64,000 bases of DNA from NCBI GenBank assembly GCA_937860055.1, contig CALMBO010000018.1, forward strand, positions 1 to 64,000, written 5' to 3'. Source of the stretch: an uncultured Verrucomicrobiota bacterium (GTDB lineage Bacteria > Verrucomicrobiota > Kiritimatiellia > CAIQIC01 > Lenti-01). The position numbers and the translations under genes are program-made. The notes under the pieces are model-generated. The model was not told the DNA's origin. It saw nothing but the letters and a program-made list of their open reading frames with translations, and ran no database searches. The first letter of the stretch is position 1. The number at the start of each line of letters is the position of its first letter. Shown here piece after piece: positions 10,677 through 47,993 of the stretch.

Positions 10677-10851
10677 GTGATTTCATCTTACTTCCCTCTC
10701 CCGGCAGGTGTCAAACCGCCACCCGCATCTGGATGCCTCGCCAGGACGCTTCCCGCTGAATTTCCCCATGGACATGCTTGCGATGGAAGGCCCGTTGGGG
10801 CAACTTATGGCTATGAGCTCACACCTTCACGTGGAGCGGAACCCGATCGTC

Positions 10852-13800
10852 ATGGGGCGGTGGCTGGCGGTGCTGTTCCTATGGGCCCTTCCGCTTGCTT
10901 CCCTGGGCGGCGATTTTACCTATACAACCAATTCCCCCGCTACAAACACGGTCACCATCACCGGCCACACGGATCCCCGTGGCGGGCTGGCCATTCCTTC
11001 CAATATCGCCGGCCGGACCGTCACCGCCATTGGAAACAACGCCTTCCGGGGAGCCACCGGCCTTTCCGGCCTTTCGATCCCGGCCAGCGTCGCCACCGTC
11101 GGCAGTTCCGCGTTCTACGGGTGTGCTGGATTGACGAACCTCTCCATGGAAAATGGCGTCACCACGATCGGCAGCTATGCGTTCTACGGGTGCAGCGGCC
11201 TCGCCGCCGTGGCCATTCCCGCCAGCGTCACCTCGATCCAGGAGCGCGCATTCGATGGCTGTACCAGCCTGGCCGCCATCTCCGTCTCGGAGACCAATGC
11301 CGCCTATTCCAGCCTCGACGGGGTCCTGTTCAACAAGGCGCAAACCTCGATCCTCCAGCACCCCGGCGGCAAGGAAGGCGCCTATTCGATTCCCGATGGC
11401 GTCGCTTCGATTGGCGCCTATGCGTTCTATGCCCGCACCGGCCTGACAGACGTGTCCATTCCAGGCAGCGTCACCTCGATTGTGAGCTATGCGTTCCAGG
11501 GCTGCACCGCCCTGACGGACATCGTTCTCCCCGACGGCCTCGCCACCATCGGGACCTACGCGTTCTATGGTTGCTCCAACCTGCGGAACATGGATCTCCC
11601 CGCCAGCGTCACCTCGATCGGAAGCAGCGCCTTTCAAGGCTGCACCGCCCTGACGGACATCGTTCTCCCCGACGGCCTCGCCGCGATCGGCAGTTACGCG
11701 TTCTACGGCTGTTCCCGTCTCGCAAGCATCGCCATCCCCGCCAGCGTCTCCTCGATCCAGGACCGCGCGTTCGATGGCTGCCCCGCTTTGGCCGCCATCA
11801 CGGTCTCGGAAACCAATGCCTCCTATTCCAGCCTCGACGGGGTCCTGTTCAACAAGGCGAAAACCTCGCTCCTCCAGCATCCCGGCGGCAAGGAAGGAGC
11901 CTATTCGATTCCCGATGGCGTCGCCACGATTGGCAGCTATGCGTTCTATGCCCGCACCGGCCTGACCCGCGTCGACATTCCCGCCAGCGTCACCTCCATC
12001 GGAACCTACGCTTTCCAAGGATGCACCGGCCTCACCGGCATCGATCTCCCCGATGGCCTCGCCTCGATTGGAAGCGGTGCCTTCATCGGCTGTTCCAATC
12101 TGCGCACCATCTCCCTCCCCGGCGGCATCACCGCGATCGGAACCGGCGCGTTCCAAGGTTGCACTGGCCTGGCAGGCGTGGACCTCCCTCCCAATGCCAC
12201 CTCGATTGGAAGCAGTGCCTTCCAAGGCTGCACCGCCCTGATGGATGTCGTTTTGCCCGACGGCCTCGTCACCATCGGAACCTATGCGTTCTACGGATGT
12301 TCCCGCCTCACGAACATCGCCATCCCCGCCAGCGTCTCCTCGATCCAGGACCGTGCGTTCGATGGCTGCCCCGCTTTGGCCGCCATCTCCGTCTCGGAAA
12401 CCAATGCCGTCTATTCCAGCCTTGACGGGGTCCTGTTCAACAAGGCGCAAACCACTCTCCTCCAGCACCCCGGAGGCAGGGAAGGCGACTGTTCGATTCC
12501 CGACGGCGTCACCTCGATTGGCGCCTTTGCGTTCTGCGCCCGCACCGGCCTGACCCGCGTCGGCATCCCCGCCGGCGTCATCTCCATCGGAACCTACGCT
12601 TTCCAGGGGTGCTCCAGCCTGACGAACATCAACCTCCCCGATTCCCTCGCCACGATCGGCAACTATGCCTTCCAGAGCTGTTCCGCCCTGGGAACCGTGG
12701 AAATCCCCGGCACTGTCGTTTCGATCGGAACCGGCGCCTTCCAAGGCTGTTCCGGCCTGGCAAGCCTCGCTCTCGGCACCGGCGTCGCTTCGATCGGAAG
12801 CTATGCATTCTATGGCTGTACCGCTCTCGCCGGCGTGGACATCCCGGCCAGTGTCACCACGATCTCGGATCGCGCGTTCGATGGATGCTCCAGCCTGGCC
12901 TCCATCTCCGTCGCGGCCGGCAATGCCGCCTATTCCAGCCTCGACGGCGTCCTGTTCAACAAGGCCCAGACCTCGCTCCTCCAGCACCCCGGCGGCAAGG
13001 AAGGCGCCTACGCCATTCCCGATGGCGTCACCACGATCGGCAGCTATGCGTTCCTCGCCCGCACCGGCCTGACGGGCGTTACCCTCCCCGGCAGTCTGGC
13101 AACGATCGGCATCAGCGCATTCCAGGGATGCACCAGCCTGGCGAGCATCGAAATCCCCGATGGCGTCGCCTCCATCGGCAGCAGCGCGTTCCAGGGCTGC
13201 ACCGCCCTGCGGAATGCCGTGATCGGCAGCGGTGTCATCTCGATCGGCGGCTATGCGTTCTATGGCTGCATCCGCCTCGCGGAAGTCGTCATCCCCGAGG
13301 GCGTCACCACGATCGGCAGCTATGCGTTCCATGGCTGTTCCAGTCTCACCAACGCGGTCATCCCCGCCAGCGTCGCCCTGATCCAGGAGCGCGCGTTCGA
13401 CGGCTGCCCCGGCCTGGCGGCTTTTTCCGTCGCGGCGGATAATGCCGTTTATTCCAGTCTGGACGGCGTCCTGTTCAACAAGGCCCAGACTTCACTCATC
13501 CAATATCCCGGCGGCCGGGAAGGCGCCTATTCGATCCCCGATGGCGTCACTTCGATCGGGAACTTCGCCTTCTACGCGCGGGCCGGCCTGACCGGCATCG
13601 ACATCCCCTCCAGCGTCGTTTCCATCGGAAACTATGCCTTTCAAAGCTGCACCGGCCTGACCAGCGTGGCCGTGCCCGACAGCACAGCCGCCATCGGGAT
13701 CTACGCCTTCAGCGGATGTTCCGGCCTCACGAATATCGCCATCGGAACCCATGTCGCCTCGATTGGAACCTATGCGTTCTTCGGATGCACCCGTCTCGCC

Positions 13801-15927
13801 AGCGTGGACATCCCGGACTCCGTCGCCACGATTCAGGACCGCGCGTTCGATGGTTGCACCAGCCTGACCTCCATCTCCGTCGCGGCCGGTAATGCCGCCT
13901 ATTCCAGCCTCGACGGGGTCCTGTTCAACAAGGCCCAGACCTCGCTGATCCAATTCCCCGCCGGCCTCGGAGGAACCTATGCCGTCCCGTCGGGCACCGT
14001 CTCGATCGCAACCTATGCCTTCTACGGATGCACCAACCTGACGGATGTCGTCATCCCCGGAGGCGTCACTTCGATCGGCGGCTATGCGTTCCAAGGATGC
14101 ACCGGCCTGGCCGGCGTCAGCCTTCCCGCCACCCTGGCCTCGATCGGATCCGGCGCGTTTCTGGGCTGTACCCGCCTGGCCGGCATTCAGATCCCCGATG
14201 CCGTCGCCGCCATCGGGGCCGGCGCCTTCCAAGGCTGCACCAGCTTGACGAACGCCACCATCGGCACCAATGTCACCTCCATCGGGGGCAGCGCGTTCTT
14301 CGGATGTTCCAGCCTGACGGGCGTGGAAATCCCGGAAAGCGTCACTTCGATCCAGGATCGCGCCTTCGATGGCTGCACCGGTCTGGCTTCCATCTCCGTC
14401 GCGGCGGACAACACCGCCTACTCCAGCCTGGGTGGCGTCCTGTTCAACAAGGCGCAAACCTCGCTCCTCCAGTTTCCCGCCGGCCTCGGCGGGACCTATG
14501 CCGTTCCCTCCAGCGTCACCTCGATCGGCAGCTTCGCGTTCAATGGCCGCACCAATCTGACTGGCGTAACCCTCCCGGATGGCCTCGTCGCGGTCGGGAG
14601 CTACGCGTTCTACGCCTGCACCGGCCTGGCCAGCATCAACCTTCCTTCAAGCCTCACCTCCATCGGGAACTATGCCTTCTGCGGATGCGCCGCCCTTTCC
14701 GGCGTGACCATCCCCGAGGGCGTCGTCTCGATCGGAACCGGCGCGTTCCAGGGTTGCACCGGCTTGGCGGACATCGCCATCCCCGGCACCGTCGCCGCGA
14801 TCGGAGGCTATGCCTTCTATGGTTGCTCCGGCCTGACGAATGCCATCCTCGCCAACGGCACCACCTCCATCGGCGGCTATGCGTTCTGCGGGTGCTCCTC
14901 CCTCCCCGGCGTGGAAATCCCCGGCAGCGTCACGTCGATCCAGGAGGGCGCGTTCGACGCCTGCGCCAGCCTGGCTTCCATCTCCGTCGCGGAAGGCAAT
15001 GCCGCCTTTTCCAGCCTCGATGGCGTCCTGTTCAACAAACTGCGGACCCTGCTTCTTCAATATCCCGGCGGCAAGGAAGGGGCCTATGCCATCCCCCTCG
15101 GCGTCGCCTCGCTCGGAAACTACGCATTCCACTCCTGCAACCGCCTGCCTGCTTTGGCCATTCCCGACACCGTGGCCGCCATCGGGGCGGGAACGTTCAA
15201 CAACTGCACCGGATTGACCCATGTCGCGATCGGCGAAGGGGTGGCGAGGATCGGAACAAGGGCATTTGAAGGCTGCATCAACATTCCCTCGCTCGTGCTT
15301 CCCGCCAGCGTCGTCTATGTGGGCGGAGGCGCATTCGACGCTTTTACCGGCAACATCTACTTCAAGGGGAATGCGCCGGCTTGCGACCCCAACGCCCCCG
15401 ATTGGGCTTCGGCATTCTACTGCCTCGGCACGGCCGGCTGGGAGATCGGCCTCCCGGAAATCCGCGTCTGGACAAGCGTGGCGACCTTCGACGCGGGGGC
15501 GGGAACCCCCTCGTATGCGAGCTGGACTTGCAACGTGGGCAATGCCTACGGCACCTTGCCGACGGCAGACCTGACGGATTTCGCGTTCGCCGGCTGGTGG
15601 ACCGCGGCGGATGCCACGGGCACAAGGGTGTTCACCTCCACGCTTGTGCCCTATGCGACGGCCCCGCACACGCTCCATGCCCGGTGGACCGAAACCCCGG
15701 CCATCGGCGGGGAAAGCGAAATCCTCTTCACGCCCGGCGCCCTGTCATTCGGAATCCCGGCGGATTACTCGGGATGCGCGGTCGAATACGCCACCGCCGT
15801 GACGAATGGCGCGTGGAATTTCGCCCCCCTGCCGGCCGGGGAATACGCCGTGTCGAACGGAACCGTGACCCTCTACTATTCGCCGGCCCGCCCCAAGGCC
15901 ATCTACCGGGCGAAGTTCAGCCCGTAG
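10852..15927 (+). CDS. Giant BspA-type leucine-rich-repeat surface protein
   Basis: This is a 1691-residue protein. I chose the ATG at 10852 because it opens a clean signal peptide (MGRWLAVLFLWALPLASLGG); the frame extends back to 10708. Nearly all of it consists of 23-residue LRR_5 (Treponema pallidum/BspA) repeats of the form xxIGxYAFxGCxxLTxVxIPxxV. Eight slightly longer units contain the phrase SSLDGVLFNK, typical of LRR_5 proteins. Near the C-terminus a Listeria-Bacteroides (InlB B-type) repeat is visible (VATFDAGAGT to DFAFAGWW), followed by a short beta-rich end. No LPXTG, PEP-CTERM or membrane anchor was seen. In other bacteria such proteins mediate adhesion or surface coating; the role here is inferred only. 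Confidence 0.9.
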   Translation: MGRWLAVLFLWALPLASLGGDFTYTTNSPATNTVTITGHTDPRGGLAIPSNIAGRTVTAIGNNAFRGATGLSGLSIPASVATVGSSAFYGCAGLTNLSMENGVTTIGSYAFYGCSGLAAVAIPASVTSIQERAFDGCTSLAAISVSETNAAYSSLDGVLFNKAQTSILQHPGGKEGAYSIPDGVASIGAYAFYARTGLTDVSIPGSVTSIVSYAFQGCTALTDIVLPDGLATIGTYAFYGCSNLRNMDLPASVTSIGSSAFQGCTALTDIVLPDGLAAIGSYAFYGCSRLASIAIPASVSSIQDRAFDGCPALAAITVSETNASYSSLDGVLFNKAKTSLLQHPGGKEGAYSIPDGVATIGSYAFYARTGLTRVDIPASVTSIGTYAFQGCTGLTGIDLPDGLASIGSGAFIGCSNLRTISLPGGITAIGTGAFQGCTGLAGVDLPPNATSIGSSAFQGCTALMDVVLPDGLVTIGTYAFYGCSRLTNIAIPASVSSIQDRAFDGCPALAAISVSETNAVYSSLDGVLFNKAQTTLLQHPGGREGDCSIPDGVTSIGAFAFCARTGLTRVGIPAGVISIGTYAFQGCSSLTNINLPDSLATIGNYAFQSCSALGTVEIPGTVVSIGTGAFQGCSGLASLALGTGVASIGSYAFYGCTALAGVDIPASVTTISDRAFDGCSSLASISVAAGNAAYSSLDGVLFNKAQTSLLQHPGGKEGAYAIPDGVTTIGSYAFLARTGLTGVTLPGSLATIGISAFQGCTSLASIEIPDGVASIGSSAFQGCTALRNAVIGSGVISIGGYAFYGCIRLAEVVIPEGVTTIGSYAFHGCSSLTNAVIPASVALIQERAFDGCPGLAAFSVAADNAVYSSLDGVLFNKAQTSLIQYPGGREGAYSIPDGVTSIGNFAFYARAGLTGIDIPSSVVSIGNYAFQSCTGLTSVAVPDSTAAIGIYAFSGCSGLTNIAIGTHVASIGTYAFFGCTRLASVDIPDSVATIQDRAFDGCTSLTSISVAAGNAAYSSLDGVLFNKAQTSLIQFPAGLGGTYAVPSGTVSIATYAFYGCTNLTDVVIPGGVTSIGGYAFQGCTGLAGVSLPATLASIGSGAFLGCTRLAGIQIPDAVAAIGAGAFQGCTSLTNATIGTNVTSIGGSAFFGCSSLTGVEIPESVTSIQDRAFDGCTGLASISVAADNTAYSSLGGVLFNKAQTSLLQFPAGLGGTYAVPSSVTSIGSFAFNGRTNLTGVTLPDGLVAVGSYAFYACTGLASINLPSSLTSIGNYAFCGCAALSGVTIPEGVVSIGTGAFQGCTGLADIAIPGTVAAIGGYAFYGCSGLTNAILANGTTSIGGYAFCGCSSLPGVEIPGSVTSIQEGAFDACASLASISVAEGNAAFSSLDGVLFNKLRTLLLQYPGGKEGAYAIPLGVASLGNYAFHSCNRLPALAIPDTVAAIGAGTFNNCTGLTHVAIGEGVARIGTRAFEGCINIPSLVLPASVVYVGGGAFDAFTGNIYFKGNAPACDPNAPDWASAFYCLGTAGWEIGLPEIRVWTSVATFDAGAGTPSYASWTCNVGNAYGTLPTADLTDFAFAGWWTAADATGTRVFTSTLVPYATAPHTLHARWTETPAIGGESEILFTPGALSFGIPADYSGCAVEYATAVTNGAWNFAPLPAGEYAVSNGTVTLYYSPARPKAIYRAKFSP
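11311..15013 (+). repeat. Nested LRR super-repeats quantised in 69-nt steps
   Basis: The SSLDGVLFNK codons recur with starts at 11311, 11830, 12418, 12937, 13456, 13906, 14425 and 15013. Successive distances are 519, 588, 519, 519, 450, 519 and 588 nt. These differ only by multiples of 69 nt, exactly one 23-codon leucine-rich repeat. Confidence 0.9.
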
Positions 15928-19386: not shown

Positions 19387-19875
19387 ATGACGCCGCTCCT
19401 CGTCGCCCTGCTGGTCATCCTGCTCGACCAAGCGTCGAAGGAGTGGGTGCGCGGCACGTTTTCCCTGCACGAGTCGGTGCCGGTGCTCCCCGGCTTCTTC
19501 AACCTCACCTATATCCGCAACACCGGCGCCGCCTGGGGCATGTTCAGCGGGCAGAACCTCGCCCTTGCCCTCCTGGCCTTCGTGATGCTGGTCACCCTCG
19601 TCGTCTTCCGCCGCAAGATCCTCCCGCCCGGACGCCTCCACCGCGTCGCCCTCGGCCTGCTCTGCGGCGGCATCGCCGGCAACCTCTTCGACCGCCTCCG
19701 CCTCGACTACGTCACCGACTTCCTCGACTTCTACTTCCGCGACGGGCATTTCCCCTCCTTCAACGTCGCCGACTCCGCCATCTGCATCGGCGTCGGCATC
19801 TACGTCCTCGGCACCCTCCTCGCCCCGCCCCCCTCCGCCACCGGAGGAAAGGCGCCGGAAACCTCCGCGCCATGA
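19387..19875 (+). CDS. lspA: Lipoprotein signal peptidase (signal peptidase II)
   Basis: This 162-residue integral membrane aspartyl protease removes signal peptides from prolipoproteins after diacylglyceryl transfer. Four transmembrane segments are visible. The two catalytic aspartates lie in the conserved GNLFDRLRLDYVTDF and FNVADSAI motifs, and the NLTYIRNTGAAWG motif is present. It follows the DksA-like gene closely. In several PVC and other genomes dksA-like genes and lspA are neighbours. The stop codon is immediately followed by a palindromic repeat cassette. Confidence 0.95.
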   Translation: MTPLLVALLVILLDQASKEWVRGTFSLHESVPVLPGFFNLTYIRNTGAAWGMFSGQNLALALLAFVMLVTLVVFRRKILPPGRLHRVALGLLCGGIAGNLFDRLRLDYVTDFLDFYFRDGHFPSFNVADSAICIGVGIYVLGTLLAPPPSATGGKAPETSAP

Positions 19876-19981
19876 GTTTTCCACGCCATGGAAAAAGTTT
19901 TTCCATTGTGTGGAAAAACGGACGAAAGTTTTTCCATTGTGTGGAAAAACCGCTGAAAGTTTTTCCATTGCGTGGAAAAAC
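19876..19981 (+). repeat. Palindrome cassette copy A: four TTTTTCCA-N5-TGGAAAAA units
   Basis: Four imperfect palindromes start at 19876 (short form), 19897, 19928 and 19959. The last three have an exact 31-nt period, separated by 9-nt spacers of the type CGNNGAAAG. Centres are TTGTG or TTGCG, giving the unit a direction. The cassette aligns without gaps to the reverse complement of 40123-40228. It fills most of the space between the lspA stop and miaA. Confidence 0.9.
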
Positions 19982-20014: not shown

Positions 20015-20950
20015 ATGACCGCCCTCGCCGCCCATTTTCTCGTCGGGCCCACCGCCTCGGGCAAGAGCGCCGTCGCCCTCCATCTGGCGCTCCAGTCGCG
20101 CCCGCCGCGCCCCATCCTGTCCGCCGATTCCATGACGATCTACCGCGGCATGGACATCGGCACCGCCAAGCCCGACGCCGCCGAACGCGCCGCCGTCCCC
20201 TCCTTCGGCTTCGATCTCGCCGAGCCCGACCGGCTGTTTTCCGTCGGCGACTACCTCGCCGCCGTCCGCTCCGCCGCCCCCGCGGTCGCCGCCTGCGGCG
20301 CGCCGCCCATCGTGGTCGGCGGCACCGGGCTCTACGTCAAGTGCCTCACCGAAGGGCTCGACAGCGCCCCCTCCGATCCCGGCCGCCGCGCGGCGGCCGA
20401 GGCGTTGCTGCAGGCCGAGGGCCTCGAAGCCCTCCAGGCCGCCACCCAGGCCCTGAATCCGGCGGAATACGCCCGCCTGCGCGACCCGGAAAACCCGCGG
20501 CGAGTCATCCGCGCCTACGAGCTGCTGGCTTCCGGCCATCCCCTGCCGGCCGCCGAGGAGCGCCCGCGCCCCAAGGTCGCCGGCCTGGTCCTGCCGCCCG
20601 AGGAGCTGCGCGCGCGCATCGCCCGCCGCGCCCGCCAGATGTTCGCCTACGGCCTCGTCGAGGAAGTCCGCGCCCTGCGGGCGAAATACCCCGCCCTCTC
20701 CGAGACCGCCCGCCACGCCATCGGCTACGAGGAGGCCGCGCGCGTCCTCGACGGCCAGATCCCCGAGGAGGAGGCCATCCGCCTCACCGCCCTCCGCACC
20801 GGCCAGTACGCCAAGCGGCAGATGACGTGGTTCCGCCACCAGGCCGACGTCGTCTGGGTCGAGGTGGGGCCGCGCGACGATACCGAGCGCCTGTCCGGCA
20901 AGGTCCAGAAGGTCTGGAATTCCCACGGCCCCGCCGCCTTGCGGATCTGA
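20015..20950 (+). CDS. miaA: tRNA dimethylallyltransferase
   Basis: MiaA transfers a dimethylallyl group to A37 of tRNAs reading UNN codons. The protein has 311 residues. The P-loop GPTASGKSAVA, the DMTI-like SADSMTIYRGMDIGTAKP motif, VVGGTGLYVKCL, NPRRVIRAYE and the C-terminal RTGQYAKRQMTWFRHQ motif are all present. I chose the ATG at 20015 because CGGAGG lies four bases upstream. The open frame reaches back to 19910, but those codons are the palindromic repeat cassette. Confidence 0.95.
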   Translation: MTALAAHFLVGPTASGKSAVALHLALQSRPPRPILSADSMTIYRGMDIGTAKPDAAERAAVPSFGFDLAEPDRLFSVGDYLAAVRSAAPAVAACGAPPIVVGGTGLYVKCLTEGLDSAPSDPGRRAAAEALLQAEGLEALQAATQALNPAEYARLRDPENPRRVIRAYELLASGHPLPAAEERPRPKVAGLVLPPEELRARIARRARQMFAYGLVEEVRALRAKYPALSETARHAIGYEEAARVLDGQIPEEEAIRLTALRTGQYAKRQMTWFRHQADVVWVEVGPRDDTERLSGKVQKVWNSHGPAALRI

Positions 20951-39207: not shown

Positions 39208-40083
39208 ATGATCCCGCGCGAGACATTGAAAAAAATCCGGCGAATCGAGATCCGCACCCGGCGCTCGGTCAACGACGTCTTCGCGGGCCGCTACCATTCC
39301 GTCTTCAAGGGCCAGGGCATGGAGTTCCAGGAGGTCCGCGAATACGTCCCCGGCGACGACATCCGCTCCATCGACTGGAACGTCACCGCCCGCACCGGCT
39401 CCCCCCACGTCAAGAAATTCACCGAGGAGCGCGAGCTCACTGTCATGCTCCTCGTGGATATCTCCGCCTCCAACCGCTTCGGCTCCACCGCGCAGCTCAA
39501 GCGCGATCTCGCCGCCGAAATCGCCGCCGTCCTCGCCTTCTCGGCCATCACGAACCACGACCGCGTCGGCCTGATCCTTTTCTCCGACCGCGTGGAAAAG
39601 CACGTCCCGCCCGCCAAGGGCCCCACCCACGTCCTGCGCGTCATCTCCGAAATCCTCAACGCCAAGCCCACCTCGCCCAGGACCGACCTCGAACCCGCAC
39701 TCCGCTACCTCAACCACGTTGTCCGCCGCCGTTCCGTCGCGTTCCTCATCTCCGACTTCATCGCCCCGCCCTGCGAACACCTCCTGCGCGTCACCGCCCG
39801 CCGCCACGACCTCGTCAGTCTCGTCGTCGGCGACAAGCGCGAAAGCGCCCTCCCCGCCGTCGGCCTCGTGGACTTCGAGGACGCCGAAACCGGCCAGCGC
39901 ATCGTGCTCGACACCTCCCACGCCCCGACCCGCCGCGCCCTCCTCGCCCGCCACACCGAGCGCCGCCAGGCCCTCCTGCGCACCCTCGCCCGCGCCCGCT
40001 CCGACGCCATCGAACTCAACGCCGGCGAACCCTACGGCCGCGAACTCGTCCGCTTCTTCCGCGCCCGGGAGAAACGCCGGTGA
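39208..40083 (+). CDS. DUF58 VWA-like protein of the Bat operon
   Basis: This 291-residue cytoplasmic protein has the DUF58 core motif FQEVREYVPGDDIRSIDWNVTARTGSPHVKKF, followed by a VWA-type domain with LLVDISASNRFG (MIDAS-like DxSxS) and RSVAFLISDF. DUF58 proteins are standard partners of MoxR ATPases. No signal peptide was seen. The stop overlaps the GTG at 40080 that opens the next frame. Confidence 0.93.
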   Translation: MIPRETLKKIRRIEIRTRRSVNDVFAGRYHSVFKGQGMEFQEVREYVPGDDIRSIDWNVTARTGSPHVKKFTEERELTVMLLVDISASNRFGSTAQLKRDLAAEIAAVLAFSAITNHDRVGLILFSDRVEKHVPPAKGPTHVLRVISEILNAKPTSPRTDLEPALRYLNHVVRRRSVAFLISDFIAPPCEHLLRVTARRHDLVSLVVGDKRESALPAVGLVDFEDAETGQRIVLDTSHAPTRRALLARHTERRQALLRTLARARSDAIELNAGEPYGRELVRFFRAREKRR

Positions 40084-41216
40084 AAACCTGCCCCCCCATG
40101 CGGCGGGAGGGCGCCGCCCGCGGTTTTTCCACACAATGGAAAAACTTTTCGCCGTTTTTCCACGCAATGGAAAAACTTTGGGTGGTTTTTCCACACGGTG
40201 GAAAAAAGTTTTCCACACGGTGGAAAACTTCCGCCATTCTTCATTCTTCATTCTTCATTCTTAATTTCGCCCTTTGGTCGGGCTGCTCCAAGCCCGCCCC
40301 GCCGCCGCCGGAACTCCCCGCCGGCCAGTATTTCTCCGTCTCCGCCTCGATCTCCACCAACCAGATCCGCATCGGCGACCCCGTCGATGTCACCCTGACC
40401 GCCCTGCACCGCGACGGCACCACCGTCGGCTTCCCCAACCCCGCCAGCGGCAAGGATGTCGTCGTCCGTGACGCCAAGACCGAAACCGAAACCTTCCCCA
40501 ACGGCCTGCTCCGCACCGTCCAGAAACTGCGCCTGACCTCGCTGACCGTCACCAACCACGTCATCGGCGAAAAGGCCTCGATCCTGCTTTCCACCCCCGC
40601 CGGCGTGCAAACCAACGCCTACCCGTTCCTTTCGCTCGAAGTCGTGTCTTCGCTCAAGCCCGGCGAGCAGGAGATCCGGCCCGCCAAGGGCGGCCTCGCG
40701 CATTGGCCGGCACCGCCCTCGCACTGGCTTTGGATCACGCTGGCCATTCTGGTTCTCCTCGCTGCCGCCTTCCTCGCGCTGCGCAAGTTCCTGACCACCC
40801 CGCGCACCTTCCTGCACCTGCCGCCGCCCGTCCCGCCGCACCAGATCGCGCTCGACGCCCTCGCCGACCTGCGCGCCAAGGGCTGGATCGAGGCGCTCCA
40901 GATCGAGCCCTTCTACGTCGCGCTCTCCGGCATCGTCCGCCGCTACCTCGAAGGCCGCTTCGGCCTCCGTGCGCCTGAACGCACCACCGAGGAATTCATC
41001 CGCGATGCCCTGTCCTCCAAAAAACTGTCCGACGCCCACCGCGACCTCGTCGCCGGCTTCCTCGAGCAAAGCGATCTCGTGAAGTTCGCCCGCCACGCCC
41101 CCGGTCCATCGGACATGCACAACGCCCTCGACTCCGCCGAACGCCTCGTCCGCGAAACCATGCCCGTGGAAGCCGTGCCCCAACCCGAACCCGCCAGCCG
41201 AAAGGAATCGCCATGA
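40080..41216 (+). CDS. Membrane lipoprotein of the Bat operon (BatD/DUF4381-like)
   Basis: The mature part (from Cys69) has an N-terminal beta-domain (GQYFSVSASISTNQIRIGDPVDVTLTAL), a transmembrane helix (WLWITLAILVLLAAAFLAL) and a cytoplasmic helical region (PPHQIALDALADLRAKGWIE to EQSDLVKFARHAPG), as in DUF4381/BatD-like proteins. ALWSGC is a lipobox. The start is unclear. The GTG at 40080 is coupled to the DUF58 stop but would translate the palindrome cassette. The ATG at 40167 gives 350 residues but also lies in the cassette. The hydrophobic signal (ILHSSFFILNFALWSGC) is encoded mostly by the CATTCTT repeat tract. Confidence 0.75.
   Translation: MKTCPPMRREGAARGFSTQWKNFSPFFHAMEKLWVVFPHGGKKFSTRWKTSAILHSSFFILNFALWSGCSKPAPPPPELPAGQYFSVSASISTNQIRIGDPVDVTLTALHRDGTTVGFPNPASGKDVVVRDAKTETETFPNGLLRTVQKLRLTSLTVTNHVIGEKASILLSTPAGVQTNAYPFLSLEVVSSLKPGEQEIRPAKGGLAHWPAPPSHWLWITLAILVLLAAAFLALRKFLTTPRTFLHLPPPVPPHQIALDALADLRAKGWIEALQIEPFYVALSGIVRRYLEGRFGLRAPERTTEEFIRDALSSKKLSDAHRDLVAGFLEQSDLVKFARHAPGPSDMHNALDSAERLVRETMPVEAVPQPEPASRKESP
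40123..40228 (-). repeat. Palindrome cassette copy B: four TTTTTCCA-N5-TGGAAAAA units, inverted
   Basis: Palindromes start at 40123, 40154, 40185 and 40208; the first three have a 31-nt period and the last is the short form. Centres read CACAA, CGCAA and CACGG on the plus strand, so the cassette is the reverse complement of the one at 19876-19981, with the same 106-nt length and the same unit order. It begins 40 nt after the DUF58 stop, inside the open frame of the next gene. Confidence 0.9.
40235..40262 (+). repeat. 28-nt tract: CATTCTT x4
   Basis: Four exact CATTCTT heptamers lie directly after palindrome cassette B. In the frame of the lipoprotein gene they encode ILHSSFFIL, the core of the signal peptide. 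The same four heptamers recur at 47254-47281. Confidence 0.9.
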
Positions 41217-47196: not shown

Positions 47197-47225
47197 AAAG
47201 TTCAATGATGAATGATGAATGTAGA

Positions 47226-47993
47226 ATGAAGAATTGGGGGATTCGATTCCTGTCATTCTTCATTCTTCATTCTTCATTCTTCATTGCCGCGCCAGCGGCC
47301 CTGGCGGCGCCCCAGGACGAAGCGCGATTCGAACGCACGTTCGCCGACGCCGCGCGCACCTACGACGAAAACCGCCTGGCCGACGCCATCGCCGGCTGGG
47401 AATCGTTGGTGGACGAAGGACAGAAGCTCCCCGAAGTCCTGTTCAACCTCGGCAACGCGCACTACCGGAACGGGAACCTGGGCAAGGCCATCCTCGCCTA
47501 TCGACAGGCCCAGCGGCTCGCGCCGCGCGATCCCGACATCCGCGCCAATCTCGGTTTCGCGGCGCAGTCGGCCGGCATCGCCCTGCCTGTCCGCAAACCC
47601 CTTGCCGCGCTCCTGCTCGATGCCAGCCGCGAGGAATGGCTGGCGTCCGGATCCGCCGGCTTCTGGCTGCTGTCCCTGTCGCTGGCGACCTGGATCCTGT
47701 GGCCCCGCTTCCGCTTCATCTCGCGGCCCGCCGCCGCCGTGTCCGCCGCCTGGCTGCTCCTCGCCCTTGCCGGGCTGTGGATGCACCGGGACCTGCGCCG
47801 GACACCCGAGGGGGTCGTGATGGTCCGCGACCAGATGGTCCGATCGAGCCCGCTGGAAACCTCCACGCCGCTCCTCGCCGTTCCCGAAGGCGCGATCGTC
47901 CGCAAGCTGGATGAACGCGGGAACTGGTTGGAAATCCGCTACGATGCCACCCGCGGCTGGCTCCCCGCCGATGTCGTCTCGCCGGTGCTATGA
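47226..47993 (+). CDS. batE: BatE: TPR and SH3-domain membrane protein
   Basis: The protein has 255 residues. I chose the ATG at 47226, which opens a textbook signal peptide (MKNWGIRFLSFFILHSSFFI then AAPAALA), over the coupled GTG at 47193. TPR helices (RTYDENRLADAIAGWESLVDE, FNLGNAHYRNGNLGKAILAYRQAQRL) are followed by two membrane helices (GFWLLSLSLATWILW and AAAVSAAWLLLALAGLWM) and a C-terminal bacterial SH3 domain (AIVRKLDERGNWLEIRYDATRGWLPADVV). This is the standard BatE layout. The signal peptide is encoded mainly by a CATTCTT repeat. The 3' end overlaps the convergent methyltransferase gene by 6 nt. Confidence 0.88.
   Translation: MKNWGIRFLSFFILHSSFFIAAPAALAAPQDEARFERTFADAARTYDENRLADAIAGWESLVDEGQKLPEVLFNLGNAHYRNGNLGKAILAYRQAQRLAPRDPDIRANLGFAAQSAGIALPVRKPLAALLLDASREEWLASGSAGFWLLSLSLATWILWPRFRFISRPAAAVSAAWLLLALAGLWMHRDLRRTPEGVVMVRDQMVRSSPLETSTPLLAVPEGAIVRKLDERGNWLEIRYDATRGWLPADVVSPVL
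47254..47281 (+). repeat. 28-nt tract: CATTCTT x4 in the batE signal-peptide codons
   Basis: Four exact heptamers identical to those at 40235-40262 encode FILHSSFFI in batE. A complementary AGAATGAAGAA lies upstream around the batE start codon (about 47223-47233), so a hairpin over the start is possible. Confidence 0.9.

Follow-up and report, generated by a model that had tools for sequence, protein, structure and literature searches.

Two palindrome cassettes in the window

What kind of element is formed by four closely spaced palindromes that directly follow a stop codon and recur, inverted, elsewhere on the same contig? The window, a stretch of 64,000 nucleotides, belongs to contig 18 of the 3.05-Mb, 29-contig genome of an uncultured Verrucomicrobiota bacterium (G000). 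A first-pass annotation had reported four units with a 31-nt period that align without gaps to an inverted second copy, and had suggested a helically phased, multi-site protein-binding or RNA-hairpin element that moves as a unit. Nine palindrome matches with up to three mismatches were present in these 64 kb, compared to 0.09 expected by chance according to shuffled sequences.

Among 68 units from the sampled part of this genome, the motif was a 21-base palindrome with 96-100% conservation of positions 2-8 (TTTTCCA) and 14-20 (TGGAAAA), while the outermost T and A were present in 74% and 65%, respectively, and the centre was free. The units are near-symmetric, and two types were apparent. Type A units are symmetric, have no fixed tag and are frequently paired at 22 nt. 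Type B units carry AAAG 5' of the T-run and, in this species, the core CCATTGYGTGG; they recur every 30-31 nt with regular spacing and usually point the same way within one cassette.

Cassette 1 (19876-19981, no strand assigned) occupies the gap between an lspA-like gene (19387-19875, plus strand; signal peptidase II by sequence resemblance), past whose stop it begins by 1 base, and a downstream miaA-like gene (20015-20950, plus strand). Its palindromes start at 19876, 19898, 19929 and 19960, and thus the four units stood but the uniform period did not, as the true steps are 22, 31 and 31 nt, the short one being 22 nt. The first unit (19876-19896, GTTTTCCACGCCATGGAAAAA, no strand assigned) is of type A and is followed on the plus strand by three type B units at 19898-19918 (AAAG-tagged, TTTTTCCATTGTGTGGAAAAA), 19929-19949 and 19960-19980 (TTTTTCCATTGCGTGGAAAAA). 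Cassette 2 (40123-40228, no strand assigned) begins approximately 40 nt past the stop of a DUF58-type gene (39208-40083, plus strand; named from sequence resemblance), so that both cassettes lie behind plus-strand stop codons as originally noted. Here the order is B B A A with palindromes starting at 40124, 40155, 40186 and 40208 (steps 31, 31 and 22), of which the type B units (40124-40144 and 40155-40175) are inverted relative to those of cassette 1 and lie on the minus strand, while the type A units (40186-40206 and 40208-40228, spaced at 22 nt) have no assigned strand. The reported alignment was reproduced: without gaps, 19876-19981 matches the reverse complement of 40123-40228 at 89 of 106 positions (84%). 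Part of the agreement between the spacers arises because a semi-conserved AAAG/CTTT adjoins units spaced at 31 nt. The second copy is indeed inverted, which is unremarkable since cassettes occur in both orientations.

Several other features of the window were observed. The second unit of cassette 2 contains an ATG at 40167, the possible start of a downstream lipoprotein-like frame (MEKLWVVFPHGGKKFSTRWKTSAILHSSFFILNFALWSGC, 40167-40290) with a lipobox-like stretch at its end, and the last unit likewise appears to provide this gene with its start codon in G003 and G004. Heptad repeats (ATTCTTC/ATTCTTA)n are located at 40235-40266 and 47203-47286 as well as in L193 (2268) and L199 (16953). Several of these heptad repeats lie immediately 5' of predicted start codons, some contact a cassette, and at the same loci of other species the heptads differ (e.g. 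ATATCCA in G006). The repeat GGGGTCMGTCCTATAAATTATAA (2577-2605 and 2671-2699) resembles the GGGGWSAS motif reported from terminal repeats of tyrosine transposases (PMC3733652), and a similar sequence adjoins the DUF58 cassette in G001, G003 and G009. A 1739-aa frame built of 69-nt (23-aa) repeats (10708-15927) probably encodes a BspA-like leucine-rich repeat surface protein.

Distribution, position and spacing of the arrays

The search for TTTTCCA-N5-TGGAAAA yielded 234 copies in G000 and none for the reversed-pattern control. All 28 genomes searched of the order (Kiritimatiellae) contained the motif, with copy numbers of 253 in G001, 360 in G011, 441 in G020 and a maximum of 718 in G017, while G023 and G027 had just 1-2. 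In the rest of the class it was sporadic, and most of the 28 genomes there have none at five T's. Named contigs bearing the motif were mostly labelled Lentisphaerae, Verrucomicrobia, Kiritimatiellae or Pontiellaceae, the nearest being Verrucomicrobia bacterium ADurb.Bin018 and a Kiritimatiellae bacterium with protein identities of up to 86-90%, which would place the window in Kiritimatiellae. A phage-borne element was rejected, as only two viral contigs matched. The genomes are draft metagenome assemblies in which many contigs end at cassettes; in G004, G001 and G006 many start or stop within or beside one, which suggests that these repeats break assemblies.

The position of the cassettes relative to genes was analyzed in 0.44 Mb of G000 and in samples of its relatives, using gene calls from a self-trained hexamer model. 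Nearly all cassettes were intergenic. The 58 placed cassettes of the genus comprised 40 in co-directional, 15 in convergent and three in divergent gaps, compared to 94, 19 and 30 among 143 background gaps, which corresponds to a depletion of divergent gaps (3/58 vs 30/143, p = 0.006, Fisher) and an enrichment of convergent ones (15/58 vs 19/143). Their median distance from the upstream stop was 35 nt. The orientation of type B units relative to transcription was random (27 sense, 29 antisense). In G020, a member of another family of the order, arrays were as frequent in divergent gaps as expected from the background (10/54 vs 29/138) and clusters occupied about four in ten gaps; the 3' bias is therefore not universal. 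No functional theme indicative of a regulon was detected among the flanking genes, which were unrelated housekeeping genes, and crude longest-ORF gene calls in 99 named contigs revealed no recurrent neighbour that could represent a mobiliser or regulator.

Spacings of 22 and 30-32 nt predominated within the genus; a few were 52-53 or 62 nt, and G002 had two exceptions of 19 and 21 nt. Named contigs exhibited 22, 30-32, 42, 53, 62-63 and 94 nt as well as two longer gaps. The other family of the order provided the strongest evidence on geometry. In G020 the distance was exactly 32 nt for 29 of the 33 close pairs and in G017 it was 31 or 32 nt for 16 of 17. The G020 spacers carried 0.0-0.3 bits at nearly all positions, i.e. 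random sequence, and since their length is fixed while their sequence drifts, which tandem duplication would not bring about, the geometry is kept up in its own right and is not a legacy of such duplication. Within the window's genus, 31-nt units share spacer letters and part of the regularity there could stem from unit duplication. A period of 10.5 bp fits well in all three genomes fitted, with G000 alone fitting other periods better. These spacings argue strongly for helical phasing at about two and three turns, short of proof because just two main distances support it. The multi-site, phased character proposed for the cassettes is thus borne out by many further copies, by the spacing kept in relatives and by the bias toward gene 3' ends. 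The outcome named in the initial annotation as refuting it, a lack of other copies in the genome and of conserved spacing among relatives, did not occur.

Species-specific cores and half-site turnover

The palindrome core is TTTTTCCA/TGGAAAAA in the window's species and TTTTTACG/CGTAAAAA in G006, while G004, the sister of G006 (bootstrap 100; the same tree leaves the placement of G002 unsupported), carries both CCA and ACG cores. G006 contained 152 ACG/ACG sites and 14 four-T CCA sites. In G004 we found 34 ACG/ACG and 177 CCA/CCA sites together with 104 ACG/CCA hybrids among a total of 315, and G002 had 19 hybrid sites. When one side of a G004 hybrid was tagged, the ACG half was on the AAR-tagged side in 26 cases and on the other in three (n=29). 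Hybrids fold at only -3 to -4 kcal/mol, compared to -9 to -10.5 for homotypic units of the genus and -5 to -6 for the cores of other genera.

At the miaA locus, the phased array is kept in all five genus genomes holding the locus, with the core TTTTTACG-N5-CGTAAAAA in G006. The thiF, DUF58, rlu, nadE, duf480, rr and lspA loci likewise have an array position common to several species and differ in core and unit order; php and shmt have an array in G000 only. The proposal that the cassette moves as a unit was not upheld, as the units at orthologous loci vary in number, order and type while the site of the array is often retained. In the miaA locus of G006 (L119), the gene preceding the array is not lspA, so that the array marks the place of a rearrangement or an assembly joint. 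Core turnover is a case of concerted evolution with an intermediate half-site step, via in-place substitution or whole-unit replacement; amplification or gene conversion could be an alternative origin of the species-wide homogeneity of the core. DnaA boxes were rejected as an identity of the motif: the half-site TTTTCCACA is similar to the DnaA consensus, but neither the G006 core TTTTTACGT nor TTTTTCCAAGG, the core in a different family of the order, fits.

Nature of the phased arrays

The arrays probably, though far from certainly, consist of sites for a putative, fast-evolving sequence-specific protein shared across the order, its binding being inferred from the two- and three-turn phasing and the half-site structure. 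Each palindrome would be a double-stranded site composed of two half-sites, each defined by four to five T's and a three-base identity (CCA here), and would be recognized by a dimeric or oligomeric DNA-binding protein. With neighbouring sites two (22 bp) or three (31-32 bp) turns apart, bound dimers would share one face of the helix and be in contact, which may permit cooperative binding, and touching dimers would wrap or bridge the intergenic DNA, mostly right behind stop codons, that holds the arrays. As for their likeliest use, our guess is a role at domain boundaries or at 3' ends as roadblock or supercoil element. More tentatively, and with the odds against it, the protein may be a chromosome-organising factor found throughout the order that polymerises on or wraps the intergenic arrays, its half-site specificity having been replaced genome-wide within one genus, midway in G004 and completely in G006.

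A candidate family for such a protein is Lrp/AsnC, whose members bind sites two or three turns apart and whose phased operators, such as those of the archaeal Ss-LrpB, place palindromes at these centre-to-centre distances on one face of the DNA (PMC2995911). The distances of 22 and 30-32 nt observed here (32 in G020) correspond to this arrangement, whereas hundreds of sites located mostly at gene ends differ from the few control regions of Lrp/AsnC. Each genome of the genus encodes one Lrp/AsnC protein, and its recognition helix exhibited no change tracking the core switch, the G006 helix resembling that of the CCA-type G001. Since the spacing fits but the helix does not covary with the core, the family was rejected as the binding factor and is retained as a lead only.

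Alternatively, the cassettes might be mobile or amplifying palindromes similar to REP/BIME elements, i.e. hairpins at gene 3' ends that are spread and homogenised by a transposase or gene conversion with phasing as a by-product of copying. A BIME combines several palindromes, regularly spaced and alternating in orientation. REP and BIME elements are short extragenic palindromes, some of them protein-binding (PMC2817692, PMC3733652), and high copy number, species-specific consensus and 3'-end bias are REP-like traits (PMC3733652). The present motif shares the extragenic location, more than 100 copies per genome, regular clustered spacing, species-specific families and, in the genus, the 3'-end bias; it has hundreds of copies, with gains and losses as at php and shmt, and the length is that of a 20-40 bp REP palindrome (234 copies in G000). 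It differs in its T/A-rich arms, helix-turn spacing with random spacers, replacement of CCA by ACG through hybrids, and the occurrence of one motif throughout the order. The GTAG/CGTC tag is absent, type B units having AAAG and type A units no fixed tag. Only two of 31 Y1 tyrosine transposase loci contained the palindrome, in one case more than 1 kb off and in the other at a gene that has a different repeat of its own on either side. The array operates in the manner of a BIME or an Lrp-type array; lacking both tag and transposase partner, it was not filed as REP. Copying would also not produce the spacers of G020 and G017, fixed in length and random in sequence, and the motif is nearly absent from viral contigs. 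Untagged REP-like palindromes are known in M. tuberculosis, D. radiodurans, Bordetella, Brucella and cyanobacteria (discussion of PMC3733652), and are set apart from the present motif by taxon rather than by sequence comparison. Overall, we consider this explanation unlikely. A tyrosine transposase (C2) situated 0.3 kb from a cassette was rejected as a RAYT/REP link, being flanked by its own repeat GGGCGGCTTCCAGCCGCCC. Separately, L116 harbours a Y1 transposase gene with its own repeat CGGGACGGGCGGCTTCCAGCCGCCCC on both sides, a distinct REP-like family.

That the arrays act at the RNA level, as bidirectional intrinsic terminators or hairpins stabilising mRNA 3' ends, is less probable still and in our view quite doubtful. 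The 35-nt median distance past stops, the enrichment of convergent and depletion of divergent gaps in the genus and folding energies of about -10 kcal/mol are consistent with such a function, as is the shmt locus, where G004 has a GC-rich hairpin and T-run in place of the G000 cassette. It is contradicted by the one third of G004 sites (104/315) that lose most of the hairpin, the random orientation of type B units, and the background frequency of arrays in divergent gaps of G020. Moreover, the stem has a weak A-U base, which is unusual, terminator-like calls were few, and a hairpin function would leave the single fixed core of each species unexplained. An intrinsic terminator has a GC-rich hairpin followed by a U-tract and is oriented with transcription, an organization that the arrays do not display. 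The cassettes had no match in Rfam, whose sole hit in the window at the gathering threshold was a tRNA. Of the two options initially proposed, protein binding is therefore favoured over an RNA hairpin, because the G004 hybrids lose the hairpin but keep their half-sites and because the units are oriented without regard to the direction of transcription.

A DNA-uptake signal (DUS/USS-like) with a dialect that differs from species to species would likewise agree with inverted pairs close to gene ends. This explanation has very little to recommend it, since solitary half-sites outside cassettes occur at Markov expectation (TTTTCCA 78 vs 75.6; TTTTTCCAC 4 vs 3.7) and the signal thus exists only as phased palindromes. 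Work on Neisseriaceae uptake sequences describes species dialects (PMC3630211), which similarly involve a short motif differing genome-wide between related species, but here only phased palindrome arrays occur and solitary copies are not enriched.

In the literature searched on palindromes of Kiritimatiella, Pontiella and Verrucomicrobia (subscription papers being mostly outside this search), we found no description of such a system, which apparently has not been described so far. The motif would be a convenient taxonomic marker for genomes of the order, and the strict spacing at two and three turns, combined with spacers of random sequence, yields a prediction that can be cleanly tested. If one protein binds these sites, the arrays would amount to a DNA-organising system of global reach, with as many as 700 sites in a single genome, in a mostly uncultured order. 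The CCA, hybrid and ACG genomes would then form a rare natural series in which the specificity of a protein shifts together with that of its hundreds of sites.
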